A stretch of 64,000 nucleotides of DNA from Gonatopus flavifemur. Lineage: Eukaryota > Arthropoda > Insecta > Hymenoptera > Dryinidae. Location: NCBI GenBank assembly GCA_018340375.1, contig JAFFJZ010000071.1, positions 720,611 to 784,610 on the forward strand. Reading direction: 5' to 3'. A program made the translations under genes and the position numbers. Of this stretch, positions 34,010 through 63,999 are shown piece by piece. The notes under the pieces are model-generated. The model was not told the DNA's origin and searched no databases. It saw only the letters and a list, made by a program, of their open reading frames with translations. Positions within the stretch are counted from its first letter, which is position 1, and each line of letters begins with the position of its first letter.

Positions 34010-34915
34010 TATAATCTGATATGAAATCGAAAGAATAAACAAAATATCAATTTTCAATGAAATGGCAGGTTCTGAAGAAACAATTCAATTTTCGATGAAA
34101 ATTGTAGCTTTCAATTGTTTATGGAGTGAATATTTATCGGTAAGAAAAACCTTCGATCAATTGAAGGGCCGGACCTCTCGTCTAGTGCACCTGAAAGTAG
34201 GCAACCACCGCTAATCACGTTTCAGGGCTTTCATATTGAAAACATATAAGAAATTCGCGATACTAAAAAAGCTTCCAGTGGGAAAGTTGTTGCGAATGTA
34301 TTCAACAACACTCTGACGAATTTTGAGACAATTCCGTATGGTAGGTTAGAAATTATTGCAGGTTGAGTGAAAAAAATGCCATGTGCATCGATTGAGATGT
34401 TACAAAATGGGTGTTCTCAAAGGGGATGAAAATGATTAGATACATGAAGCTGTTCGAAAACAATTCTCGAATGCAGTTCACCCAAATCGATTGAATATTT
34501 CACACTTTTTTTCAATAAAACATAATCACATACATGTAAAAATGTATGATAGTTATTTGAACGTTTCATTGGAAAGAACCAATGATTGAATATTGATAAA
34601 TTTGAGAACATGAACGTTGCTGTTCATCTGACATGGCTGTTGAACGATGGTTTCGATCTAGAAACATCAATTTTGTGACAGTGGAATCCATAAACAACAC
34701 ATTTCCTCGTCTTTGATTTAGATTCCGTTTCAATGAACGATTCAAAGTTCAAGAATACAACCAGTATGCCTTTGAATTGAAAGAATTTTTATTTCAATAC
34801 ATCGTATAAATCTTTTCCATACATTAAAAAAATAACAAACCAAATATTATAGAATAAAAGATGAAATAATAAACTCAGAAATAAATCATACGAATTTCAA
34901 AATTTGTCCTATCAT

Positions 34916-35678
34916 TCACAGAAGCTCTTCATCGTTTTTTTTAAGATCACGAATTGTGTTTTTGAAAAGATTTTCATAAAAAGCCTGACCTTTCACGCTC
35001 AAATATTGCTGCAAACTTTTTAGATCTTTCAATTTTGCGCTTGAAATCCCTACTTCAGTTGCCGGTGCTGCATTTTCTAAATCATTCAATGAAGTATTCA
35101 CCCTGACGGAAATTGTTAACGGTTCCCCTTTGTACTGATGATACGCGTTAATTTGACCGTTTGGAAAATAATCAATTTCCACCGCAGATCCTATTTTGAT
35201 ATTGCGAATTTCAGAATTTTTTTGTAAAATCAATTCAAAATCTCTTACGTTGCATTGTGCAACGTCAATCATTTTAAAAGGAGGATTTCTAGAATTTTCA
35301 ATGATTTCAATGTACTCTTCGGGTGTTTTAATGGTTTCTTGCATTTTTTTCTTCTGACCGTATCTACCAAAATTCCTATCACATTCACAATACGAGTGTC
35401 CACGGACAGGGTAGAGAGGTTCAATATAAACCTCGAAGTTTTGAGAGAACATTGACAAAAAACGGACCATCATATGATTTCTATTTTGACCTCCTGCAGC
35501 ATCGGAATATAAAAAGATTTTGTTATACCCCTTTTTTTGTAATCCAAGGCGCGAAGCATAATATAACGAATTACAAACTGTGTTTTTTCCTTTCCTGAGC
35601 ATTCCTTCAATGAAATGAAACATATAAGTCGATTCTGAATGAAGAATATGTTTCATTTCATTGAAGGAATACTCAACA
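34916..35678 (-). CDS. DUF7869-like transposon protein, C-terminal part
   Basis: The frame encodes about 253 residues of a protein I recognise as DUF7869-like, a family found in high copy in insect genomes and probably transposon-derived with an RNase H-like fold. Key phrases are KKGYNKIFLYSDAAGGQNRN, PVRGHSYCECDRNFG and YFPNGQINAYHQYKGEPL. The aspartate of YSD and the GGQN motif are the likely core. The N-terminal part is missing, because element X begins at 35677 and supplies the first dozen codons of the open frame (including its ATG). No stop interrupts the rest. Broken copies are at 36779-37060, 39076-39525, 40629-40908 and 42012-42461. The enzymatic role is inferred, not shown. Confidence 0.7.
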
Positions 35679-36778
35679 CTGTAAAAAAAAACTGGAAATT
35701 TACTGTGCAACTGGACTGGAAATTTCCAGTGCTAGTACTGGAATATGGATATTCCAGTACATGTACAGAGATTTTGTTGTTACGTTACTGAAAATTTACC
35801 AAGCATAACTGAAAATTCAGTCATTGTACTGGAATTTTCAAGTTTGAGATGATGTACTGAAATTTTGCCATGATTTCGCGAAAATTTTACCGGCTCGTAC
35901 TACAATTTTATAGTTCTTGTGCACCAAAAAAAAATATTCCCTCAAAAAGGACTTGAGAAAAAATTTGGAATTTAGAAAAAAAAACCTAATCGTTGGTATA
36001 CTGGAATTATACAGGTTTTTAACTGCAATTCTTAGGTTTGTGATGGAATTTTCCAGTTACTATGCAATTGAATTATACAGGTTTTGAACTGCAATTTTCA
36101 GGTCGTGTGATGGAATTTTCCAGTTGCTATGCAACGGAATTTAATCACTGTTGCACTGAAATTTTCCACTTCTATTGGACTTCGTCATTTCTGGCAGGAA
36201 AAATTTCAAGTCTTTATATTAAAAATTTCCTGATTGAGATTTTGAATAATAATTGTAATTGTAGCCAATGAAATTGATATATGAGGTTTTTCCAAGACTT
36301 ATCCTCTTGTGTTCTAGATATGAAGCATATGTAGTAACCCAAGCTGGCCTTCCAACATGTCGCGCTATAGCTCATCGGTTAGGTCTTAGGTTTCAGTTGG
36401 TAGGCAGGTAGAAAAGTGTGGGTTCAAATCCTGTTAGGTAGACATGAGTTTCTGTCCATCCAAATGAACGATCAAAAGTTTCTCAATCATCTTGGAACAC
36501 AAGGACCCTGCAAAATCACTTTGCGTGAGCAATTTTTTTTCAATTTTCATGGATATTTTCAGCATTAATTTTCCAGTACATGTCCTGGAAAAGTCCAGCT
36601 CGTGTACTGAAAAATTCCAGTACCGAGGCTCAGAAAATTTCCAGTTTTGATGCGGAAATTCCATAACGTTTGCACTGAATTTTTGCAGTACAAATGTGCT
36701 GAAATTTTCCGGTACATGTACAGGTTAATGACTTCCAGTACATGTACTGGAATTTTCCGGTGAAATTTTTTTACAGTG
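35677..36778 (+). mobile_element. Element X, copy 1 (1.1 kb, CACTGTAAAAAAA termini)
   Basis: It starts CACTGTAAAAAAAA and ends TTTTTTTACAGTG. The inside repeats CCAGTA, TACTGG and GTACATGTAC, with AACTGGAAATTT phrases, throughout and on both strands. A tRNA-like segment lies at 36359-36443. Identical-looking full copies are at 39526-40628 (same orientation) and 40909-42011 (opposite). A truncated one is at 37061-37465. There is no transposase, so it is non-autonomous. Confidence 0.88.
36359..36443 (+). tRNA. tRNA-like sequence inside element X
   Basis: GTCGCGCTATAGCTCATCGG contains an A box (TAGCTCATCGG), and GGTTCAAATCC about 55 bases later is an excellent B box. The 85-base segment ends in GTAGAC, partly complementary to its start. 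The anticodon arm is not convincing. It is best read as a tRNA-derived Pol III promoter carried by element X. It recurs at 40209-40293 and, inverted, at 41244-41328. Confidence 0.5.
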
Positions 36779-37060
36779 AAGAAAGGAGCAAACACAGTTT
36801 GTAATTCGTTACATGATGCTTCGCGCCTTGGATTACAAAAAAAGGGGTATAACAAAATCTTTTTATATTCCGATGCTGCAGGAGGTCAAAATAGAAATTG
36901 TATGATGGTCCTTTTTTTGTCAATGTTCTCTCAAAACTTTGAGGTTTTCATTGAACATCGTTACCCTGTCCGTGGACACTCATATTGTGAATGTGATAGG
37001 AATTTTGGGAATACCGCCAGAAGAAAAAAATGCAAGAAACCATTAAAACACTCGAAGAGT
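36779..37060 (+). pseudogene. DUF7869 fragment between X copies, plus orientation
   Basis: It encodes KKGANTVCNSLHDASRLGLQ to about CDRNFGNTARRKK, with a frameshift where RYGQKKK stands in the fuller copy. It is flanked by X copy 1 and truncated X copy 3. The same 280-base segment occurs at 40629-40908 in the opposite orientation between the same two X orientations. Confidence 0.8.
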
Positions 37061-37465
37061 ACACTGTAAAAAAATTTCACCGGAAAATTCCAGTACATGT
37101 ACTGGAAGTCATTAACCTGTACATGTACCGGAAAATTTCAGCACATTTGTACTGCAAAAATTCAGTGCAAACGTTATGGAATTTCCGCATCAAAACTGGA
37201 AATTTTCTGAGCCTCGGTACTGGAATTTTTCAGTACACGAGCTGGACTTTTCCAGGACATGTACTGGAAAATTAATGCTGAAAATATCCATGAAAATTGA
37301 AAAAAAATTGCTCACGCAAAGTGATTTTGCAGGGTCCTTGTGTTCCAAGATGATTGAGAAACTTTTGATCGTTCATTTGGATGGACAGAAACTCATGTCT
37401 ACCTAACAGGATTTGAACCCACACTTTTCTACCTGCCTACCAACTGAAACCTAAGACCTAACCGA
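37061..37465 (-). mobile_element. Element X, copy 3 (truncated)
   Basis: It starts CACTGTAAAAAAATTTCACC and follows X for 405 bases, then breaks at CTAACCGAT inside the tRNA-like segment. There it joins the outer edge of the giant palindrome. Confidence 0.85.
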
Positions 37466-39075
37466 TTTTCGTGAAGGTCCCGTCATCCAATCTCATTTCA
37501 ACAGGAAACCACACGAATGAATCACTTTACTCCGAGAGGTAAATTCACCCTCAAACAGTCGGAGGGTCGCTTTTCCAAATTGTTGATTCCGATGAATGTT
37601 CGAACCTTCTCAATTCCCCCTTCTCCGATGTGGAATTCTTCCAATTATATCGCGATGCGCATCCTATTTCCAGTGTTTCCTGCCCTAAAATAAACATCCC
37701 GACTCCAGCATCAACTTCTCTTTGCATTACATATATCTTCATCCCAGTCATTTTTGTATCCATTCTATTCAGTATACAAGTGATCAGTTCTCCCAATTAC
37801 GTGATGTAATCACGTGTGCATGCATATATAATTCGTTGGATATATGTATCCCATCCGCTTCATGTGCTTACGCAGCTTCTTCTCTTCCCCTCTTGCCGTC
37901 TGTTTGAATATACATGTTAAGAACGGATCAAGGGGCGACCAGCTACCCCCCTACCCTGGATGCTGGGTACGCCCCTGAATTCTTTGGTTATCATATCTCC
38001 CGCAATGTCATAATCTTTCGTCAAACCCGACCACAGAGACATCTGTGTTTACAATCCCACGAGGCCGTTGCCTCTCAATGTATCGCATTGTCATCGAACT
38101 TCAAGTTAGTGACTTTTCGGCAAAATGAAATTTCTGCAGAATCGACCCTTACCATTTTGCACACAAGCTTGATAAATATATTTTCAGTAATTGAAGGGCC
38201 GGATCGAGTAATCGGTTGTGCGCGTGACCTCTCTTCTAGTGCACCTGAAAGTAGGCAGCCACCACTAATCACGTTTCAGGACTTTCATATTAAAAACATA
38301 CAAAAAATTCGCGATACTAAAAAAACTTCCAGTGAGAAAGTTGTTGCAAATGTATTCAACAACACTCTGACGAATTTTGAGACAATTCCGTATTGTAGGT
38401 TAGAAATTATTGCAGGTTGAGTGAAAAAAATGCCATGTGCATCGATTGAGATGTTACAATATGGGTGTTTTCAAAGGGGATGGAAATGATTATGTACATG
38501 AAGCTGTTCAAAAAAAATTCTCAAATGCAGTTCACCCAAATCGATTAAATATTTCACACTTTTTTTCAATAAAACATAATCACATACATGGAAAAATGTA
38601 TGATAGTTATTCAAACGTTTTATTGGAAAGAACCAATAATTGAATATTGGCAAATTTGAGAACATGAACGTTTTTGTTCCTCTGATATGGCTGTTGAATG
38701 ATGGTTTCAATCTGGAAACATCAATTTTGCGACAGTGGAATTCATAAACAACACATCTCCTCGTCTTTAATTCAGATTCCGTTTCAATGAACGATTCAAA
38801 GTTTGAGAATACAAGTATGCCTTCCCACTGGAAAAAATAATAGGAACTCGTACGTTTTATTAAAATCTGATAAAAGTGTCCAAATGCCACTATTGAACCT
38901 GATAAAATCTTATAAACATGTATGGGGATTCTAGAGCGTTATACAAAGTCTATGGGATTTCTTCAACGGTGTCTGAATTGAAAGAATTTTCATTTCAATA
39001 CATCGTACAAATCTTTTCCATATATTGAAAAAACAACGAACCGGATATTATAGAATAAAAAATGGAATAATAAAC

Positions 39076-39525
39076 CTAAAAATAAATCATACGAATTTCA
39101 GAATTTTCCTTATCATTCACAAAGTTATTCATCGTTTTATCGTTTTTGTTAGGATTACGAGTTGTCGTGTTTTTGAAAAGATTTTCATAAAAAGCTCGAC
39201 CTTTTACGCTCAAATATTGCTGCAAACTTTTTACATCTCTCGATTTTGCGCTTGAAATCCCCACTTCAGGCGCCGGGGGTGCATTTCCTAAATCATTGAA
39301 TCAAGTATTCACCTCGACAAAAATTTTTAACGGTTCTCCTTTGTACTGATAGTACATGTTAATTTTACCGTTTGGGAAATAATCAATTTTCACCGCAGAT
39401 CCTATTTTGATCTCGCGAATTTCAGAATTTGTTTTCAAAATCGATTCAAAATCTCTTACGTTGCATTGTGCAGCGTCAATCATTGTAAAACGAGGATTTC
39501 TAGAATTTTCAATGATTTCAATATA
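39076..39525 (-). pseudogene. DUF7869 C-terminal fragment, left palindrome arm
   Basis: IEIIENSRNPRFTMIDAAQC through FVEVNT, a stop near 39302, then GISSAKSRDVKSLQQYLSV. Relative to the copy at 34916 it has an in-frame stop after NT and small changes. X copy 2 is inserted at its upstream end with TA on both sides, and the intact copy at about 35315 shows the empty site CAATGTACTC. Confidence 0.82.
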
Positions 39526-40628
39526 CACTGTAAAAAAAAACTGGAAATTTACTGTGCAACTGGACTGGAAATTTCCAGTGCTAGTACTGGAATATGGATA
39601 TTCCAGTACATGTACAGAGATTTTGTTGTTACGTTACTGAAAATTTACCAAGCATAACTGAAAATTCAGTCATTGTACTGGAATTTTCAAGTTTGAGATG
39701 ATGTACTGAAATTTTGCCATGATTTCGCGAAAATTTTACCGGCTCGTACTACAATTTTATAGTTCTTGTGCACCAAAAAAAAATATTCCCTCAAAAAGGA
39801 CTTGAGAAAAAATTTGGAATTTAGAAAAAAAAACCTAATCGTTGGTATACTGGAATTATACAGGTTTTTAACTGCAATTCTCAGGTTTTGTGGTGGAATT
39901 TTCCAGTTACTATGCAATTGAATTATACAGGTTTTGAACTGCAATTTTCAGGTCGTGTGATGGAATTTTCCAGTTGCTATGCAACGGAATTTAATCACTG
40001 TTGCACTGAAATTTTCCACTTCTATTGGACTTCGTCATTTCTGGCAGGAAAAATTTCAAGTCTTTATATTAAAAATTTCCTGATTGAGATTTTGAATAAT
40101 AATTGTAATTGTAGCCAATGAAATTGATATATGAGGTTTTTCCAAGACTTATCCTCTTGTGTTCTAGATATGAAGCATATGTAGTAACCCAAGCTGGCCT
40201 TCCAACATGTCGCGCTATAGCTCATCGGTTAGGTCTTAGGTTTCAGTTGGTAGGCAGGTAGAAAAGTGTGGGTTCAAATCCTGTTAGGTAGACATGAGTT
40301 TCTGTCCATCCAAATGAACGATCAAAAGTTTCTCAATCATCTTGGAACACAAGGACCCTGCAAAATCACTTTGCGTGAGCAATTTTTTTTCAATTTTCAT
40401 GGATATTTTCAGCATTAATTTTCCAGTACATGTCCTGGAAAAGTCCAGCTCGTGTACTGAAAAATTCCAGTACCGAGGCTCAGAAAATTTCCAGTTTTGA
40501 TGCGGAAATTCCATAACGTTTGCACTGAATTTTTGCAGTACAAATGTGCTGAAATTTTCCGGTACATGTACAGGTTAATGACTTCCAGTACATGTACTGG
40601 AATTTTCCGGTGAAATTTTTTTACAGTG
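39526..40628 (+). mobile_element. Element X, copy 2
   Basis: Full length, with TA flanking at 39524-39525 and 40629-40630. Here the DUF7869 reading frame on either side shows that X inserted into a TA site. Same orientation as copy 1. Confidence 0.88.
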
Positions 40629-40908
40629 TACTCTTCGAGTGTTTTAATGGTTTCTTGCATTTTTTTCTTCTGGCGGTATTCCCAAAATTCCTATCACATT
40701 CACAATATGAGTGTCCACGGACAGGGTAACGATGTTCAATGAAAACCTCAAAGTTTTGAGAGAACATTGACAAAAAAAGGACCATCATACAATTTCTATT
40801 TTGACCTCCTGCAGCATCGGAATATAAAAGATTTTGTTATACCCTTTTTTGTAATCCAAGGCGCGAAGCATCATGTAACGAATTACAAACTGTGTTTGCT
40901 CCTTTCTT
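40629..40908 (-). pseudogene. DUF7869 fragment forming the palindrome spacer
   Basis: Minus-strand counterpart of 36779-37060, with small length differences in A runs. It is the only non-palindromic segment between the two arms. Confidence 0.82.
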
Positions 40909-42011
40909 CACTGTAAAAAAATTTCACCGGAAAATTCCAGTACATGTACTGGAAGTCATTAACCTGTACATGTACCGGAAAATTTCAGCACATTTGTACT
41001 GCAAAAATTCAGTGCAAACGTTATGGAATTTCCGCATCAAAACTGGAAATTTTCTGAGCCTCGGTACTGGAATTTTTCAGTACACGAGCTGGACTTTTCC
41101 AGGACATGTACTGGAAAATTAATGCTGAAAATATCCATGAAAATTGAAAAAAAATTGCTCACGCAAAGTGATTTTGCAGGGTCCTTGTGTTCCAAGATGA
41201 TTGAGAAACTTTTGATCGTTCATTTGGATGGACAGAAACTCATGTCTACCTAACAGGATTTGAACCCACACTTTTCTACCTGCCTACCAACTGAAACCTA
41301 AGACCTAACCGATGAGCTATAGCGCGACATGTTGGAAGGCCAGCTTGGGTTACTACATATGCTTCATATCTAGAACACAAGAGGATAAGTCTTGGAAAAA
41401 CCTCATATATCAATTTCATTGGCTACAATTACAATTATTATTCAAAATCTCAATCAGGAAATTTTTAATATAAAGACTTGAAATTTTTCCTGCCAGAAAT
41501 GACGAAGTCCAATAGAAGTGGAAAATTTCAGTGCAACAGTGATTAAATTCCGTTGCATAGCAACTGGAAAATTCCATCACACGACCTGAAAATTGCAGTT
41601 CAAAACCTGTATAATTCAATTGCATAGTAACTGGAAAATTCCACCACAAAACCTGAGAATTGCAGTTAAAAACCTGTATAATTCCAGTATACCAACGATT
41701 AGGTTTTTTTTTCTAAATTCCAAATTTTTTCTCAAGTCCTTTTTGAGGGAATATTTTTTTTTGGTGCACAAGAACTATAAAATTGTAGTACGAGCCGGTA
41801 AAATTTTCGCGAAATCATGGCAAAATTTCAGTACATCATCTCAAACTTGAAAATTCCAGTACAATGACTGAATTTTCAGTTATGCTTGGTAAATTTTCAG
41901 TAACGTAACAACAAAATCTCTGTACATGTACTGGAATATCCATATTCCAGTACTAGCACTGGAAATTTCCAGTCCAGTTGCACAGTAAATTTCCAGTTTT
42001 TTTTTACAGTG
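40909..42011 (-). mobile_element. Element X, copy 4
   Basis: Full-length X in the orientation opposite to copies 1 and 2. It is the mirror of copy 2 in the palindrome. Confidence 0.88.
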
Positions 42012-42461
42012 TATATTGAAATCATTGAAAATTCTAGAAATCCTCGTTTTACAATGATTGACGCTGCACAATGCAACGTAAGAGATTTTGAATCGATTTT
42101 GAAAACAAATTCTGAAATTCGCGAGATCAAAATAGGATCTGCGGTGAAAATTGATTATTTCCCAAACGGTAAAATTAACATGTACTATCAGTACAAAGGA
42201 GAACCGTTAAAAATTTTTGTCGAGGTGAATACTTGATTCAATGATTTAGGAAATGCACCCCCGGCGCCTGAAGTGGGGATTTCAAGCGCAAAATCGAGAG
42301 ATGTAAAAAGTTTGCAGCAATATTTGAGCGTAAAAGGTCGAGCTTTTTATGAAAATCTTTTCAAAAACACGACAACTCGTAATCTTAACAAAAACGATAA
42401 AACGATGAATAACTTTGTGAATGATAAGGAAAATTCTGAAATTCGTATGATTTATTTTTAG
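42012..42461 (+). pseudogene. DUF7869 C-terminal fragment, right palindrome arm
   Basis: Mirror of 39076-39525. One visible change is TRNLNKND instead of TRNPNKND. The same in-frame stop is present, so the stop predates the duplication. Confidence 0.82.
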
Positions 42462-44044
42462 GTTTATTATTCCATTTTTTATTCTATAATATCCGGTTCG
42501 TTGTTTTTTCAATATATGGAAAAGATTTGTACGATGTATTGAAATGAAAATTCTTTCAATTCAGACACCGTTGAAGAAATCCCATAGACTTTGTATAACG
42601 CTCTAGAATCCCCATACATGTTTATAAGATTTTATCAGGTTCAATAGTGGCATTTGGACACTTTTATCAGATTTTAATAAAACGTACGAGTTCCTATTAT
42701 TTTTTCCAGTGGGAAGGCATACTTGTATTCTCAAACTTTGAATCGTTCATTGAAACGGAATCTGAATTAAAGACGAGGAGATGTGTTGTTTATGAATTCC
42801 ACTGTCGCAAAATTGATGTTTCCAGATTGAAACCATCATTCAACAGCCATATCAGAGGAACAAAAACGTTCATGTTCTCAAATTTGCCAATATTCAATTA
42901 TTGGTTCTTTCCAATAAAACGTTTGAATAACTATCATACATTTTTCCATGTATGTGATTATGTTTTATTGAAAAAAAGTGTGAAATATTTAATCGATTTG
43001 GGTGAACTGCATTTGAGAATTTTTTTTGAACAGCTTCATGTACATAATCATTTCCATCCCCTTTGAAAACACCCATATTGTAACATCTCAATCGATGCAC
43101 ATGGCATTTTTTTCACTCAACCTGCAATAATTTCTAACCTACAATACGGAATTGTCTCAAAATTCGTCAGAGTGTTGTTGAATACATTTGCAACAACTTT
43201 CTCACTGGAAGTTTTTTTAGTATCGCGAATTTTTTGTATGTTTTTAATATGAAAGTCCTGAAACGTGATTAGTGGTGGCTGCCTACTTTCAGGTGCACTA
43301 GAAGAGAGGTCACGCGCACAACCGATTACTCGATCCGGCCCTTCAATTACTGAAAAATATATTTATCAAGCTTGTGTGCAAAATGGTAAGGGTCGATTCT
43401 GCAGAAATTTCATTTTGCCGAAAAGTCACTAACTTGAAGTTCGATGACAATGCGATACATTGAGAGGCAACGGCCTCGTGGGATTGTAAACACAGATGTC
43501 TCTGTGGTCGGGTTTGACGAAAGATTATGACATTGCGGGGAGATATGATAACCAAAGAATTCAGGGGCGTACCCAGCATCCAGGGTAGGGGGGTAGCTGG
43601 TCGCCCCTTGATCCGTTCTTAACATGTATATTCAAACAGACGGCAAGAGGGGAAGAGAAGAAGCTGCGTAAGCACATGAAGCGGATGGGATACATATATC
43701 CAACGAATTATATATGCATGCACACGTGATTACATCACGTAATTGGGAGAACTGATCACTTGTATACTGAATAGAATGGATACAAAAATGACTGGGATGA
43801 AGATATATGTAATGCAAAGAGAAGTTGATGCTGGAGTCGGGATGTTTATTTTAGGGCAGGAAACACTGGAAATAGGATGCGCATCGCGATATAATTGGAA
43901 GAATTCCACATCGGAGAAGGGGGAATTGAGAAGGTTCGAACATTCATCGGAATCAACAATTTGGAAAAGCGACCCTCCGACTGTTTGAGGGTGAATTTAC
44001 CTCTCGGAGTAAAGTGATTCATTCGTGTGGTTTCCTGTTGAAAT

Positions 44045-46447
44045 GAGATTGGATGACGGGACCTTCACGAAAAATCCTAATTCGGTCGGTTTGAGCATAT
44101 ATCCAAGGGCCGAGATCGTACGAACAACCCTCTCCTTCTTAGGGGATGATTTTCAGTGGTAGAATAAGTGAATTGACCTGGATTTTTTCTGTGAAAGATT
44201 AAACGACGAGATCTTCACTGGAAATCCTGATTCGGTCAGTTCAAGGGCATATCCAAAGCACAAGGTCGTCAGAACAACCCTCTTCTTCTTAGGGGATGAT
44301 TTTCATTGGTAAATTAAGTAAATTGAGCTGTCATTCTTTCTATGGAGGATGAAACGACGAGATCTTCACTAAAAATCCCAATGTGGTCAGGTGGAGAATA
44401 TATCCCAAGCACAAGGTCATAAGAACGATCTTCTTTCTTTTAGGGGATGATTTGCATTGGGAAAATGAGTAAATTGAGCTGTAATTTTTTCTATGGGTGA
44501 TGAAACGACGAGATGTTAACTCAAAATCCTTATTCGGTCAATTCAAGCATATATTCGAAGCACAAAGTCGTAAGAACAACCCTCTCCTTCTTAGGGGATG
44601 ATTTCGATTGGTAAAATAAGTAAATTGAGTTGTAATTTTTTCTATAGGTCATGAAACGACGAGTTCTTCACTAAAAATCCTAATCCGGTCAGTTCAGGCA
44701 TATATCCGGAGCACAAAGTCGTCAGAACAACCCTCTCCATTTCAGGGGATGATTTTGATTGGTAAAATGAGTGCATTGAGCTGTAATTTCTTCTATGAGT
44801 GATGGAACGACGAGATCGTGCTTGAAGATCCTAATTCTGTCAGTTCAAGCATATATCCAAAGCGCAAGGTCGTCAGAACAACCCTCTCCTCTTTAGGGGA
44901 TGATTTTCAGTGGTGAAATAAGTAAATTGAGCTGTAATTTGTTGTATGGGTGATTAAACGACGAGATCTCCACTAAAAATCTTAAATCATTCAGCTCGAG
45001 CATATACCCGAGGCGCGAGGTCGTCAAAACAACCTTCTTTTTTTTAGGGGATGATTTTCATTGGTGAAATACGTGAATTGAGCTGTGATTGTTACTATGG
45101 TTGATTGAACGACGAGGTCTTAACTGAAAATCCAAATTCGATCAGTTCAAGCATGTATCCGGAGCACAAAGTCGTCAGAACAACCCCTCTCCTTTTCAGG
45201 GGATGATTCTCATTGATGAAAAAAGTAGATTGAGGTGTAATCTTTTCTATGGGGGATGAAACGACGAGATCTTGCTCCAAAATCCTAATTCTTCCAGTTC
45301 AAGCATATAGCTGCAGCACAAGGTCGTCAGAACAACCCTCTTCTTTTTAGGGGATGATTTTCATTCGTAACATAAGTGAATTGAGCTGTAATTTTTCCTA
45401 TGGATGATTAAACGACGAGATCTCCACTAAAAATCCTGATTCGTTCGGTTCAAGCATATATCCGAAACGCAAGGTCGTCAGAACAACCCTCTTCTTTTTA
45501 GAGGATGATTTTCATTGTTAAAATGAGTAAATTCAGCTGTAATTTTTTCCATGGGTGATGAAACGACGACATCCCAACTAAGGATCCAAATTCGGTCAGT
45601 TCAAGCATGTATCCGGAGCACAAAGTCGTCAGAACAACCCCACTTCTTTTTAGGGGATGATTTTCATTCGTAACATAAGTGAATTGAGCTGTAATTTTTT
45701 CTATGGGTGATTAAACGACGAGATCTCCACTAAAAATCCTGATTCGTTCGGTTCAAGCATATATCCGAAACGCAAGGTCGTAAGAACAACCCTCTTCTTT
45801 TTAGGGGATGATTTTCATTGTTAAAATGAGTAAATTCAGCTGTAATTTTTTCCATGGGTGATGAAACGACGAGATCTCAACTAAGGATCCAAATTCGGTC
45901 AGTTCAAGGATATATCTTGAGCACAAGGTCATCAGAACAACGCTCTTCTTTTAAGGGGATGATTTTCATTGGTAAGATAGGTAAATTGAGCTGCAATCTC
46001 TTCTATGGATGATGAAACGACGTGATGTTGCCTCAAAGTCCTAATTCGGTCAGTTCAAGCATATATCCAAAGCACGAGGTCGTCAGAACAACCATCTTCT
46101 TTTTAGGGGATGATTTTCATTAGTAAAATAAGTAAATTGAGCTGTAATTTGTTGTATGTGTGATTAAACGACGAGATCTCCACTGAAAATCCTGAATCAT
46201 TCAGTTCAAGCATATATCCAAAGCGCAAGGTCGTCAGAACAACCTCCTTTCTTTGAGGGGATGATTTTCATTGGTAAAATGAGTAAGTTGAGCTGTCATT
46301 TCTTCTATGATTGATTCAACGACGAGATCTCAACTAAGGATCCAAATTCGGTCAGTTCAAGGATATATCTTGAGCACAAGGTCATCAGAACAACGCTCTC
46401 CTTTTAAGGGGATGATTTTCATTGGTAAGATAAGTAAATTGAGCTGC
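44045..46447. repeat. Satellite array, about 16 copies of a ~150-bp unit
   Basis: AACGACGAGATC and AGGGGATGATTTTCATTGG recur every 150-152 bases from about 44074 to 46447 (GGGGATGATTT counted 16 times). Units are about 80-95% alike by eye. The first, diverged unit overlaps the outer edge of the right palindrome arm (GATGACGGGACCTTCACGAAA), and its mirror is at 37466-37490. The array ends abruptly at GAGCTGCACACACATTGAGG. Confidence 0.92.
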
Positions 46448-50234: not shown

Positions 50235-50962
50235 CCCGTATAACACGTGATGTGTAAAACATATGTTCGGCATGTGAAAAATGCATAATCTCATGGAAAA
50301 CGGAATATTCTAAACAACATATTCCTGGCATATATCATTTCACATCATGTGGCAATATTGTAAGAATTATATTCAATCCACATAGCAGGAAGATTTTCAT
50401 GAACTCAGTAAACTATAACCTCTCATTTGCAAATAACCGATGAATTCATTGTTATGTGTATGCGAGTCGGAATGAAATGGTGATCTTTATCAACCTTTAT
50501 GAATTTGTATACTGTCTCAAAACTTTTTTTTAAGTTGTGTCGAATGCACGGAATTATCTCAGCCTTGTTTAGATTAATTTATCGGATTTTTATCCAAATC
50601 ACGGAGATACTCCGATAAATTAATCTAAATAAGGCTGAGATAATTCCGTGCATTCGACACAACTTAAAAAAAAGTTTTGAGACAGTATACAAATTCATAA
50701 AGATTGATAAAGATCACCATTTCATTCCGACTCGCATACACATAACAATGAATTCATCGGTTATTTGCAAATGAGAGGTTATAGTTTACTGAGTTCATGA
50801 AAATCTTCCTGCCATGTGGATTGAATATAATTCTTACAATATTGCCACATGATGTGAAATGATATATGCCAGGAATATGTTGTTTAGAGTATTCCGTTTT
50901 CCATGAGATTATGCATTTTTCACATGCCGAACATATGTTTTACACATCACGTGTTATACGGG
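50235..50962. mobile_element. 728-bp near-perfect palindrome, CCCGTATAACACG ends
   Basis: CCCGTATAACACGTGATGTG at the left is matched at the right by CATCACGTGTTATACGGG. The arms of about 350 bases are nearly identical around a 30-base loop near 50585-50615. It directly abuts the Harbinger coding sequence. Confidence 0.88.
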
Positions 50963-53620: not shown

Positions 53621-54084
53621 CTGCCGTGCCGAGCAAAAAAGTTGTTAACTCAATTTTTGTCGAAAATGAGTTTTTCATATCATTCGATTCAGAGAATCAA
53701 GGTGCATTTAACTGTGTTTACAGAAATCTGTTATTGCTCTTAATTTTTGAATAATTAACATTTTCCTTCTCTGAAAACGAAGTGAAAATCGAGCAATCAT
53801 CAGAAAAAAGCCGTAACTCACATAAAAATGAGAGAAACGATCGAATACGTCACCACTTTGCCAGGCGAAAAGACTGTAATTTGAGTTACGGTCTTTTTGC
53901 TTAGTAAATTCAGCGAGGATCAAGCCTCTTGTACTATTTCAAAGAATCTCTTCGGAGATAAGGTTTTCTTGGCTTGTAAATTGCTTGTGTCTGAAGCCAG
54001 TTCACTAGGGAAGAAAACCGTAAGTCCGGTTGTATATCTTCGGCACAATTCGGAAATCTTCGTGGCAGACGCTTCAAGATATCA

Positions 54085-54321
54085 TTGTGTACGTGAAGGG
54101 AATTGTCAAAAGTGAACATAAACGAGACAAAAATTTCATTTCATTCTGTCGGAAATCAACAAATTTGTCGAGGCATTCCGCTAGATAAAAAAACGGACAT
54201 CTTGGAAAAATTAGTACCTTTGATGCCCTCTAGTAGAAAACAATTTTGGCTCAAATTGCCCACGTCGAAAGTCAATGACTTAATCACTCATTACGACAAC
54301 GAGGAGACCGAAAAGTCCTGA
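54085..54321 (+). pseudogene. Transposon-related terminal exon fragment, left Y arm
   Basis: The frame after a stop near 54095 reads NINETKISFHSVGNQQICRG and then LPTSKVNDLITHYDNEE before TGA. The phrase spacing (RG-I-KK-DIL-KL-LMP-R-FW-LP) looks like the tail of a protein repeated in insect genomes, but I cannot name it. There is no usable ATG in frame. The mirror copy is 55888-56124. Confidence 0.4.
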
Positions 54322-55887
54322 TGCAGTCGTACAAGTATTTATATTGTAATGATTACTTTTCTTGAAGACTCAATTTATTTTTTCCTGTTTATTTGGAGAC
54401 TGAGATTACATGTGAAGCGAAAAAAAATACCTATACGGATTTGTTCAAATTTTTTATTTGTTTTCTGAAGAACAATATCGAGAATTTTATTTCAGTTCTT
54501 ATGTAAAAGATTGTTCATTTTTTCTTGTTGTTGCTTCAAATATATTAAATGAAAAGCTATTGAATCTGTTTTGTACTTTGCTGTATTTGATTTTTATGAT
54601 TATATTGACACGTTTGATAGGGATAATATTTTTGTCTGCTCCAAAAAACACTTCCACCTCAGGAATGATTACAAAACTTGTTCCTTCCATTGCATGTCAC
54701 ACAGTATGAACAAAGTTTGTACTCGATTGAAAACCTAAAAATTTCTGCAATCAAAAGTAAATCCTTTTTTTCTACCAATATTGTTATTCCACGTGAGAAA
54801 AATGTCAATTTTTGAGATATCGAATCCATAGATTTGGTAATCAAATCTTAAACTATGCTCATGTTATGCATAGCTGATTATATACTGATGTTTGTAAACG
54901 TCGCTGCACGGATACTGAGTTAACATGTTTCTCAGCTTGTAAAGCAAACGATCAAAGCATAATGTTTTGCCGTACCAGGCAAGAAAGTTGTTAACTTCAA
55001 ATCTAATAGAGAAAACCGAGAAAAACTATTCCACATTATAATCGTATGATGTAATTAATATTTCGAGATTATTAAAGCGGTTCTGGGGTAAATAAGGGGT
55101 GCTCTTTTCAATTATTTGAAAAAAAATCGATATTTTTAATAACAACCAATGAAGAAATGAGTTAAGGTTTTCCGTTGGGCAGAAACACTGACCAAAAGAA
55201 CCAAAACTCGGGTTACGGTCTTTTTCCGTGTAACAGCTCTCGAACATTATGCTTTGATCGTTTGCTTTACAAGTTGAGAAACATGTTAACTCAGTATCCG
55301 TGCAGCGACGTTTACAAACATCAGTATATAATCAGCTATGCATAACATGAGCATAGTTTAAGATTTGATTACCAAATCTATGGATTCGATATCTCAAAAA
55401 TTGACATTTTTCTCACGTGGAATAACAATATTGGTAGAAAAAAAGGATTTACTTTTGATTGCAGAAATTTTTAGGTTTTCAATCGAGTACAAACTTTGTT
55501 CATACTGTGTGACATGCAATGGAAGGAACAAGTTTTGTAATCATTCCTGAGGTGGAAGTGTTTTTTGGAGCAGACAAAAATATTATCCCTATCAAACGTG
55601 TCAATATAATCATAAAAATCAAATACAGCAAAGTACAAAACAGATTCGATAGCTTTTCATTTAATATATTTGAAGCAACAACAAGAAAAAATGAACAATC
55701 TTTTACATAAGAACTGAAATAAAATTCTCGATATTGTTCTTCAGAAAACAAATAAAAAATTTGAACAAATCCGTATAGGTACTTTTTTTCGCTTCACATG
55801 TAATCTCAGTCTCTAAATAAACAGGAAAAAATAAATTAAGTCTTCAAGAAAAGTAATCATTACAATATAAATACTTGTACGCCTGCA

Positions 55888-56124
55888 TCAGGACTTTTCG
55901 GTCTCCTCGTTGTCGTAATGAGTGATTAAGTCATTGACTTTCGACGTGGGCAATTTGAGCCAAAATTGTTTTCTACTAGAGGGCATCAAAGGTACTAATT
56001 TTTCCAAGATGTCCGTTTTTTTATCTAGCGGAATGCCTCGACAAATTTGTTGATTTCCGACAGAATGAAATGAAATTTTTGTCTCGTTTATGTTCACTTT
56101 TGACAATTCCCTTTACGTACACAA
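55888..56124 (-). pseudogene. Transposon-related terminal exon fragment, right Y arm
   Basis: Mirror of 54085-54321 with the same reading frame and stop. Confidence 0.4.
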
Positions 56125-56498
56125 TGATATCTTGAAGCGTCTATCACGAAGATTTCCGAATTGTGCCGAAGATATACAACCCAGGGGGTGGAAAGTACCA
56201 TGAAATATTGTTGAAACAAAAAATGTGGATTCAACCAGGTATGACATCTGGTGTTCTCCGGCATAACTGTCACCGCGCGCGGGATTCAAAATCATAAAAT
56301 TATATTTATTCATTTTTATCTCGATATCTCTCCATTACAACATTGTGAGAAACATTTTATCGTTTGTTTGTCATTTTTATGTTTCAGGAATCCTTATAAT
56401 TAACAGACTCCTAAAATATAAAAAGAAAAAGTTTTGATAAAACGATTCTGACAATGTTCCATCGTAAAGGTCTCGATGTATGAATATTTCTCCAAGCA

Positions 56499-59212: not shown

Positions 59213-61593
59213 TTATAAAGCTTTAAATTTTTTAACTTTCTTCAGGTGTCCATTAGCAAGCTCAACTTGTGTCTTTGGTTTGTGTTTATCCGCAATATAT
59301 TGATGTATAAAAAATCGTACGCTTTCATTTAGAATCTCGAATCTGGGATGATGATCATCACAAAATACAATGGTATTATTTTGCTCAAGATATAATATTT
59401 TAAAATTGTCCTCTAAATTGTAGAGGTGTCCATATTCATCACGATATGTATAAAGACTTGAATGTATGTTTTCGACCATTTGCATGACTTCTTCACTGGC
59501 ATATATTGGAGTTCCTTCAATATTTTTGGTTTCATAAAAATGATTTAAAAGTGCATGTTTTTCTGTTTCAATTGAACATAGTAAAGTTGTGTGACACATA
59601 TGGCACTCTGCAATATTGATTCGTTTCAAGATTGTGTGTGCATAGTATGCTAATTCGTGAGCATCTGAGTTATTAATACCAGTCTCTTGTTCTTCAATAT
59701 TACGGTTGTATTCAGATAATTCATCTCGCTCATTTATAAAATTATTCTGTACTCCCAATAGATTTTCCCAATCATCTAAGACCTTACAATTATCAAGTTC
59801 ACAATTACCAGATGAAACAGAAGCATTCAAATGATTAATCACGCAAGTTTTTAAAGCAGCAATGAATTGATAACACGTGGGATTGATATTCGTAATTCCA
59901 TGCATTCTAATTTGTCCAAATAAATTCTCAACAGGATCCTGGTTCAATGATCTTATCGGTAGACGTTCAATATCATTTTCTTTGAAATAAGCCCAAATGA
60001 ACATAACGGACTTAATTACCATCAGCCAACCTTTGTTGAACGAGAATCGATTGGTATTATCTTCTGCAGTGTCAGAACTGAGAATTTTCCAAGTTTGTAT
60101 TTGTTGGAATAATCGACGCCAAAGTTCAAAATGCAATTTCTCGGTTTCAATTGTTAAAGGTTGTTTATACTTTTTACGATCTGATATTTCAGTGTTGGCA
60201 CCATTGAAAGAATCAAATAAAGAATCTATATCGTGAATAAATTCTGCAGTGTGTAACGCTTCAACCGGCATATCATCGGACAATACACAAAATTCAATAG
60301 CTGCTGCCATGGAGTTGCTGAGTTGACGAGCGGCTGTTATGACTTTCATTTTCACATATGAGTTTGAAAAATTGAAATCTCTGTCATTTAGATGTTCAAG
60401 GATTCTAAAGCGGCGTGTTTTGTCCATTTCGAAAGCTTTTCTAATGAATTCAAATCTTACTTGTTTATAATTATCGAATATTATAATCGACCTGAGTAAT
60501 GCATTTCGAGTATTCTTTAAGAGATGAGGGACGTCGTAAATGACACATACTGGTTTGTCTCTCACTAAAAAATAGCATTTTCCTTTTTCACAAAGTTTTC
60601 CCATGGCTGAAAAATTGGTGCTTCCTTGGTCGGAAACAGTTGCTACTACATTGAATCCAATATCCTGCAATTTCTCGATCAATGTGATGACTAGTGCTTG
60701 AAGATTTATAGTAGATATTGTGTTAGCCGTGAAATAGTATGCTATCACTTGTTTATAATTTTTCAAAATACCTCGAACCATAAATACTAGAGCATGATTT
60801 GCAGTATTGTTAGTTCGTCCTAAATGTCCTAAATCTTCGTAACCATATATTAATTGCTTATCCACGTCATAATGGAAACCTCTACTCAAAGACATCACAT
60901 CGAAGATCAGAGTGCAATATCGATCTTTGGGTTTCATTTTCTGGATTTTCAATTTCAAATTTTCCAAAATAGGCTGGTTAATTCCAGGTACAAAAGAAAT
61001 GTTAGATAAAACTTTTCGTATAGTTCTAGTAGAAGGTAATTGAAAATGACACGCCAGATATCTGTATAATTTTGGACTTCTTTTATACATAGAAAGAGCA
61101 AAAATCTTATCATCTATAGTCCATATTTTTCCCTTTGGTTTTTTATTGGCATTTCGTAATTGTGAATTGATGAAATTCTGCGTTATGGTATTAAGATGCT
61201 TTTCAATAAATTCAAACTTCCCATGGTCATACATTTTTTTCAAAGATTCTAATTGATTAGTTTTATGCTGTAATTTAGTACTTATTTCACATAATCTGCT
61301 TTTTAAATTTCTGTGCACTTTATACATCAATTGTTCTGTTGGAGATAATCCTTTCTTCGGTTTACCAATTTGTTTTAGGATACTCCTAGTGTTGTTTGAA
61401 AATTGATTTGTTGTAACAGAATGAATGTTAGATTTTGAGTTTGCAATACTTTCTATATGATTTTTTGATTCAATCAGTTCCACATTGTATGACGAAATCG
61501 CAATATTATTATTATTAGAATCATTATCGCCGTTGTTTATAACATTGAGGAAAGTATCTGGATGTCCATTGTTTGACAAAATCGCATTATCAA

Positions 61594-61629
<36 letters not shown>

Positions 61630-61812
61630 TATTAATAATAATAATATCACTAGAATCATTATCACCATCGTTAACATTGAGGAAAACGTACGGATGTCCA
61701 TTGTTTGACAAAATCGTATTATTATTATTATTTATAATATCACAAGAATCATTATCACCATCGTTGTTAACATTGAGGAAAATATCTGGATGTCTATAAT
61801 TTGGCAAAATCG

Positions 61813-61884
<72 letters not shown>

Positions 61885-62416
61885 CAGCGGAATCATTATC
61901 ACCATCGTTATTAACAATCAGGAAAGTATCTGGACGTCCATTGTTCGCATAATCAGTGACATTATTTGAACTGTCAACGTCAAATTCGGAATGTAAATTT
62001 TTTTCAACATTTTTGAATTTGGGAATATTTTCATTATTCACACTCTGTAAATCAAGTGATTTGTTTACACTCGAGTGATTTTGTTTGAAAGTCCAGTTTA
62101 TATTTGAGTGAGGAACAGCTGTATGTATCAATCGATGTTTACTTTGATTCATAAAATCAGCATCGGTGAAATGATCTTCACAGATATAATAGTGAGAACA
62201 ATTTATGTTAGCATCAATTTGACATACTATTTTCCACAAACGTAAAAGCTCATCTTTTCTTGGGAACCGATAGAAATGTTTATTTTTGTAACCTTCTTTG
62301 ACGATGGGTGAATAATACCCATTATTGCAATCAGGAAATTTACAAGAATACCTGCGGTGACCGTAATCCATGTTGTGATATGCCAATGAAGAAGTATGCT
62401 GTTCGTAATGATTCAC
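59213..62416 (-). CDS. THAP-domain P-element-type transposase, intact
   Basis: A single open frame of 1067 residues encodes a P-superfamily transposase (THAP9-like), a GTP-dependent DNA-cutting enzyme in known relatives. An N-terminal THAP zinc finger is complete: C25, C30, C79 and H82, with the RFP and AVP motifs at about 50-52 and 100-102. Residues ~188-305 contain Asn runs coded by ATT/AAT microsatellites. A coiled coil follows (~370-430). The RNase H-like core shows D506 in LIFDVMSLSRG, D596 in TVSDQGSTN, D628 in IYDVPHLLKN and E830 in NQDPVENLFG. D506, D596 and E830 are my best catalytic assignment. The length exceeds THAP9 (about 900) mainly because of the Asn-rich insert. No stop or frameshift is seen. 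Confidence 0.92.
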
Positions 62417-62580
62417 ATTTTCTTGAAGATTTTTTAGTGGAAGTTATAACCAAAACCACTTATAATACTACATTATAACTTATAATAGTGATTACTTGCT
62501 TGTAGTCCTATTCTATATCACAGCCAAGTTGTACGGGTATCAGTCAAACCATTAAGGTATTGTACGATGCATAAGCTGAT

Positions 62581-63379: not shown

Positions 63380-63999
63380 ACCCCCTGATACAACCGGACT
63401 TACGGTTTTCTTCCCTAGTAAACTGGCTTCAGACACAAGCAATTTACAAGCCAAGAAAACCTTAACTCCGAAGAGATTCTTTGAAATAGTACAAGAGGCT
63501 TGATCCTCACTGAATTTACTAAGCAAAAAGACCGTAACTCAAATTACAGTCTTTTCGCCTGGCAAAGTGGTGACGTATTCGATCGTTTCTCTCATTTTTA
63601 TGTGAGTTACGGCTTTTTTCTGATGATTGCTCGATTTTCACTTCGTTTTCAGAGAAGGAAAATGTTAATTATTCAAAAATTAAGAACAATAACAGATTTC
63701 TGTAAACACAGTTAAATGCACCTTGATTCTCTGAATCGAATGATATAAAAAACCCATTTTTGACAAAAATTGAATTAACAACTTTTTTGCCTGGCACGGC
63801 AGTGTTCGAGAGCTGTTACACGGAAAAAGACCGTAACCCGAGTTATGGTTCTTTTGGTCAGTGTTTCTGCCCAACGGAAAACCTTAACTCATTTTTTCAT
63901 TGGTTGTTATTAAAAATATCGATTTTTTTTCAAATAATTGAAAAGAGCACCCTTTATTTACTCCAGAACCGCTTTGATAATCTCGAAATATTAGAATAA
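63380..63999 (-). repeat. Partial inverted copy of element Y, running off the window
   Basis: 63398-63790 is the reverse complement of about 53630-54035 with few differences. 63782-63999 matches the palindrome spacer region near 55026-55247. The motif ACCGTAACTC/GAGTTACGG recurs. The copy departs from 54029 onward: instead of ATCTTCGGCAC it joins CCACCCCCTG. Confidence 0.8.

Follow-up and report, generated by a model that had tools for sequence, protein, structure and literature searches.

A near-perfect 6.6-kb palindrome composed of three repeat families in a genome assembly of Gonatopus flavifemur, with one junction inside a pair of inverted transposons

The palindrome and its three repeat families

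The window analyzed here is a 64,000-nucleotide stretch of the genome of Gonatopus flavifemur (Hymenoptera: Dryinidae; assembly GCA_018340375.1, contig JAFFJZ010000071.1, positions 720,611–784,610). It is the final 64 kb of a 784,610-bp contig (C373) in a 636-Mb assembly of 402 contigs. The window contains a palindrome whose arms, at 37466–40628 and 40909–44073, are 99.905% identical over 3,165 columns when compared by BLAST. The two arms differ by one substitution and two one-base indels, as read from the arm alignment, and they flank an asymmetric spacer of 280 bp (S, 40629–40908). This symmetry is far beyond chance, and the arm coordinates and identity bear out an earlier note on this DNA, made from the sequence alone, which had described a 6.6-kb near-perfect palindrome with a 280-bp asymmetric spacer. 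Base 37466 is common to the left flank and the arm, and we therefore place the start of the left arm proper at 37467. Sequence runs on past both ends of the palindrome, with no hairpin-type stop.

The palindrome is part of a larger pattern, which the earlier note did not describe. In a self-comparison of the window (first 60 of 93 rows), the segment 35676–37466 is an inverted copy, at 99.67% identity, of 40224–42012, so that the spacer is present twice, in opposite orientations (S and S'). Positions 37062–37466 (405 bp) are an exact direct repeat of 40909–41313. This triplicate part is confined to the first 405 bp of a miniature inverted-repeat transposable element (MITE), designated M2, and everything else is present in two copies. 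The arms consist of sequence from three repeat families, designated P, E and M, except for about 35 bp (38154–38188, mirrored at 43349–43384). Because the arms are almost wholly repeat-derived, the statement in the earlier note that they include non-transposon sequence is incorrect. The order of features across the locus is as follows.

34159–35633, + strand: left arm of element E (copy 1); starts AATTGAAGGGCCGGA; the DUF7869-like coding piece is the open reading frame at 34916–35731, − strand
35634–35676, − strand: inner end of the right arm of element E, up to the M1 insertion (AA)
35677–36778, + strand: MITE M1, 1,102 bp; target duplication AA/AA; private T (36033) and a one-base deletion
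36779–37061, − strand: S', second copy of the spacer in opposite orientation; run lengths typical of the family
37062–37466, − strand: first 405 bp of MITE M2 with TA to its left; cut at junction 2
37466–37467, no strand: junction 2, from M2 to the inverted P end; T shared (1 bp), or GAT (3 bp) if the next run lost one T
37467–38153, + strand: extra inverted copy of the P terminus (outer part of the left arm)
38189–39525, + strand: extra inverted copy of the outer part of the E right arm
39526–40628, + strand: inverted copy of MITE M2; TA/TA; private G at 39893
40629–40908, + strand: asymmetric spacer S, the piece of E between both MITEs; lacks three single run bases kept by S'
40909–42011, − strand: chimeric MITE; TT on the spacer side (M1 junction), M2 body with private G (41644), TA on the outer side (M2)
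42012–43348, − strand: outer part of the E right arm; ends TCCGGCCCTTCAATT; one derived substitution at 42385
43385–44054, + strand: P element terminus; begins GGTAAGGGTCGATT
44055–46446, + strand: 151-bp × 15.8 minisatellite, P subterminal repeat; the palindrome ends 19 bp into it

Element E was searched for in the genome with a 301-bp query over the spacer, which gave 67 matches (40 of 204 candidates were scored). We tabulated 63 of them; the four left out are two near-identical copies in the window and two matches of 29 bp. Among the tabulated matches, 54 form 27 inverted pairs, 22 of which are 92–100 bp apart; one of the nine unpaired matches is window copy 1, whose partner is among the matches left out. 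The genome contains at least 27 such pairs by this count, and the earlier description of palindromes of this kind as rare does not apply here. Twelve E loci, all picked from the paired matches, were fetched (L009–L020). Two E arms are present in all twelve; in 11 of these the ends of the two arm alignments are no more than 22 nt apart, and 11 of 12 (all but L019) contain a long inverted self-match. Because the paired arms meet nearly end to end, E is, judged by its sequence, a palindromic repeat of ~3.15 kb with almost no spacer, AATTGAAGGGCCGGA-type ends, and predicted DUF7869-related sequence on each arm. The long inverted repeat makes up most of the element, as in fold-back transposons. A candidate target-site duplication, AATT or a close variant, was seen at the ends, but most copies have differing outer flanks. 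These E palindromes are older than the palindrome studied here, with 90–97% identity between arms in 11 of the 12 compared, and window copy 1 (34159–35633) is ~7–13% diverged from the palindrome material. The DUF7869 match in copy 1 (E = 2.3e-5, 24.5 bits) is slightly below the Pfam cut-off of 26 bits. The DUF7869-related sequence on E arms is a possible candidate for an RNase H-type transposase; a Foldseek search with DUF7869 gave nothing at E ≤ 0.001, and a literature search linking DUF7869 with transposition found no reports.

The outer 0.7 kb of the arm, used as a query, gave 39 matches, many of them in facing pairs and two of them the window's own. The 151-bp minisatellite is present in all 12 fetched P loci (L031–L042), and in 9 of them an alignment continues without interruption from the P end deep into the minisatellite. 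The minisatellite is thus joined to P ends across loci, which identifies 44055–46446 as the subterminal repeat of P, with the palindrome stopping 19 bp inside it. The ends of family P copies are long and inverted and carry the 151-bp tandem repeats subterminally. Some copies are short fold-backs of ~3–5 kb (e.g., L031 and L032), and facing end pairs are roughly 11–40 kb apart, several of them at 15–20 kb. Membership of P in the P superfamily, suggested by the THAP transposase at 59–62 kb of the window, found no support: that protein is unmatched in the twelve P loci, which hold just the ends (≤10 kb) of the long copies.

The third family, M, is a MITE of 1,103 bp with CACTG ends. The scoring covered 40 of 842 candidates, two of them from the window; all 40 align end to end and are listed at 100% identity, which looks like the result of a very recent burst in this genome. 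Copies fetched from elsewhere carry matching 2-bp target duplications in three of three cases (CA/CA, TA/TA, CA/CA), and the target duplications seen for M overall are AA, TA and CA. Near 40215–40285, M contains a stretch (TAGCTCATCGGTTAGG ... GGTTCAAATCC) that we take to resemble tRNA promoter boxes, and junction 2 falls in the corresponding part of M. A tRNA scan of the window with ARAGORN, including this stretch, found no tRNA gene.

Two junctions and the shorter locus

One arm (the right) of a single E holds both M1 and M2, which face opposite ways at a distance of 283 bp and differ from each other by two substitutions and a one-base indel. Four M copies are found at the locus: M1 with the target duplication AA/AA, the inverted whole copy of M2 with TA/TA, a right-hand M flanked by TT and TA, and the cut 405-bp piece. 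The private G of M2, which is absent from M1 and from the three fetched copies, is present in the right-hand M, and neither of the two private changes of M1 is found there. The right-hand M (40909–42011) is a chimera of M1 and M2, because it combines the private G of M2 with the spacer-side junction of M1 and has unmatched target duplications. One junction (junction 1) is therefore located inside the inverted MITEs, between 40909 and 41644.

The homology at junction 2 (37466/37467) amounts to 1 bp, or to 3 bp (GAT) on the assumption that a T has been lost. Dropping 37467–41313 restores an intact 1,103-bp M2 flanked by TA/TA, and the locus then runs without a break through one E, both MITEs and P. 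The sequence itself shows this seamless short locus, the order at the start, the chimeric MITE and the two junctions. Because junction 2 is nearly without homology, a misjoin through shared sequence is inadequate to explain it, and a molecule carrying that junction would be needed; a pure assembly-graph misjoin was rejected on this ground.

We lean toward a recent inverted duplication with two junctions, formed by template switching in the chromosome, as the probable origin of this structure; the starting locus would have been a palindromic E, its right arm carrying M1 and M2 in inverted orientation at a distance of 283 bp, with P after it. While a broken or stalled fork was being repaired, synthesis would have switched between the inverted MITEs, giving the homologous junction 1. 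Copying would then have run back to front through the outer arm of E and the P end to a point 19 bp into the P minisatellite, where a second jump or end-joining with 1–3 bp of homology inside M2 would have produced junction 2 and regained the original direction. The spacer would simply be DNA already lying between M1 and M2. The occurrence of the event in vivo, its replicative nature and its recency are the parts of this explanation that we infer.

The rearrangement is of a known kind, although unusually legible. In human rearrangements of the duplication–triplication/inversion–duplication type (DUP-TRP/INV-DUP), as described in PMC4352052, one junction lies in inverted repeats and the second showed 1–4 bp of microhomology in 14 of 16 cases. 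The locus studied here has the same combination, a junction inside a pair of inverted repeats and another with little or no homology (0–4 bp in most of the human cases covered by PMC4352052 and PMC10766186), and also the inverted copy between normally oriented copies that PMC10766186 describes. It differs in scale, being a few kilobases in total whereas the human DUP segments are reported to range from a few kilobases to thousands of kilobases (PMC10766186), and in that its inverted repeats are young MITEs and its triplicate part, the first 405 bp of M2, is inside the repeat. Fold-back single-strand annealing in yeast offers a second parallel, as inverted repeats near a break are described there to steer repair into break-induced replication by way of fold-backs or inverted dimers (PMC6103520). 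That work describes spacers of 12 bp and 1 kb and a measured outcome, whereas the spacer here is 283 bp and the product alone is seen.

Spectrum of differences and competing explanations

The extra segment and the spacer differ from their partners at six positions, comprising five one-base indels in runs and one substitution. The polarity of these differences was set from 28 distinct family loci outside the window, with overlapping loci dropped. The C run at 37999 is shorter in the left arm, and all 18 family copies have the longer stretch. In S, an A run is shorter than in all 25 family copies, and adjacent C and T runs have lost one base each; the exact unshortened form of the latter is found in 12 of 25 copies and the double loss in none. 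One T is missing in 5 of 25 copies, which indicates that this T run varies naturally. The remaining indel, in the T run at 38181, lacks relatives from which its polarity could be read. The substitution (39152/42385) is derived in the right arm: outside the window, each of the 24 distinct family arms has the left-arm base. The opposite polarity, suggested by window copy 1, is overturned by these 24 arms. A substitution derived in the right arm would be expected if the two arms exist separately.

The excess of run-length indels is unusual for this genome. Divergence among E arms amounts to 83 gap openings against 1,309 substitutions (rows shorter than 600 nt left out), and the comparison with the ratio of 5:1 gives P = 5e-6. 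Self-palindrome rows count each difference twice, and with these rows halved the E-arm figures become 49 against 832 (P = 4e-6). Seven gapless near-identical repeat pairs in the window have no gaps against 53 substitutions (P = 1e-6), or 4 against 71 when the self-palindrome at 50235–50962, with its four gaps, is included (P = 3e-5). The ratio of 5:1 is counted without the three differences between M1 and M2, which separate two insertions; with these added it becomes 6:3, which is still unlike the E arms (P = 3e-6).

Several of these observations weigh against a duplication in the chromosome. Of the five run indels, four can be polarized, each of them as a loss in the extra segment. Given a spectrum so unlike ordinary divergence at these repeats, consensus error is the most likely source of the run losses, in a stretch that was weakly supported or hard to read. 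If they had instead arisen during copying, five run indels in ~3.4 kb would require an error rate of ~1.5 per kb, which is far above the rates of break-induced replication. The single arm substitution could be a haplotype difference, window copy 1 shares the right-arm base at this position, and the palindrome is only ~20 kb from the end of the 785-kb contig. On the other side, one-base deletions in runs are described as the chief product of break-induced replication in a frameshift reporter (PMC3039667). The apparent consensus error keeps a chimeric molecule in place as a strong rival.

The rival in question is a library or assembly artifact, which we regard as a substantial possibility, though short of the probable. 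In the course of amplification or library preparation, a single-stranded M1 end would have snapped back on the inverted M2 and been extended into a fold-back, a second chimeric join (junction 2) would have attached it to the left flank, and the product would have entered a weakly supported consensus, the true locus being short. Polymerases are described to form inverted-repeat chimeras at inverted repeats in vitro (PMC9484634), and the present structure resembles such products in having an inverted copy joined at inverted repeats. Run-length differences are also concentrated in one copy here. Fold-backs are reported in ~0.55–0.6% of Oxford Nanopore Technologies genomic reads (PMC12870357). However, a simple fold-back gives one junction and a dead end, and the chimeric reads described in PMC9484634 have mostly two alignments, that is, one junction, whereas here there are two junctions with sequence on both sides. 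The chimera would also have to be preferred over ordinary reads, which need to span just ~2.5 kb, and virtually no fold-backs were reported in the PacBio HiFi sample examined in PMC12870357. The copies are identical except for five run indels, which are differences of the sequencing type, and the one substitution derived in the right arm, which argues against an artifact. The errors alone are no proof either, because nanopore base-calling accuracy is described to fall at real inverted duplicates too (PMC7229812); run errors would fit a real palindrome and a single chimeric molecule equally.

Two further explanations carry much less weight. The near-identity of the palindrome arms could in principle reflect an old palindrome maintained by gene conversion, but E arms in this genome diverge freely, with the 90–97% identities given above and a twelfth, insertion-disturbed copy at 74%. 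We compared 24 arms from 11 of the 12 fetched E loci (L019 left out) and the window, its right arm being taken without the MITEs. The nearest arm belongs to another copy in 18 of the 24 and is the arm's own partner in 6. The left-flank copy is outside the palindrome and equally similar (99.67%), which conversion between the arms does not explain. E arms thus give no sign of homogenization, and the near-identity of the palindrome arms points to recency or artifact; we consider conversion very improbable. No more credible is a reading of the whole palindrome as a native transposon of the fold-back kind, with inverted repeats of 3.16 kb. The genome does contain fold-back-like families (E and P), but the unit mixes three families, its edges are cuts inside M2 and inside the P minisatellite, and among the matches scored those at 99–100% are the window's own, the next being at 93% with the spacer query and 92% with the P-end query. 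Of the three origins proposed in the earlier note (recent inverted duplication, ongoing conversion and a fold-back artifact), conversion is not supported by the nearest-arm comparison. Duplication and artifact both stand, each by way of a switch between the two inverted MITEs.

Other features of the window and implications

The window also encodes several transposon proteins recognized by Pfam, including a DUF4817 helix-turn-helix with a Tc3-type domain below the cut-off, a reverse transcriptase, DDE_Tnp_4, and THAP with TNP-like domains. The THAP/P-type transposase is an open frame of 1,076 codons (59213–62443, − strand) with an internal asparagine-rich stretch from ATT-type repeats, and it is possibly part of an intact mobile element. 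Its best-scoring named relatives are from two beetles, Callosobruchus (46% identity) and Tenebrio (51%). Another inverted repeat is located at 54028–56181, with 939-bp arms at 99% identity, a 276-bp spacer, nine substitutions and no indels; pieces neighboring it recur inverted at 63388–63993. An Rfam search of the window returned no matches, and neither did a search for phage records.

These results lead us to speculate, as an unlikely extension, that palindrome formation is a recurrent process in this genome. With dozens of ~3-kb E palindromes and a recent burst of M, palindromes might break, nearby inverted MITE pairs might act as switch points, and larger palindromes might arise repeatedly, in which case the present locus would have been caught before its arms diverged, while the older order, the switch between the MITEs and junction 2 could still be read. 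If the structure is an artifact, it serves as a warning that inverted MITE pairs can seed near-perfect palindromes in assemblies, and that run-length errors confined to one copy may betray such palindromes. If it is real, it is a clean natural inverted duplication in an insect, with the ancestral order readable at the same locus and with target-site duplications and private bases that prove a switch inside a transposon pair, and it would link transposon bursts to the formation of palindromes.

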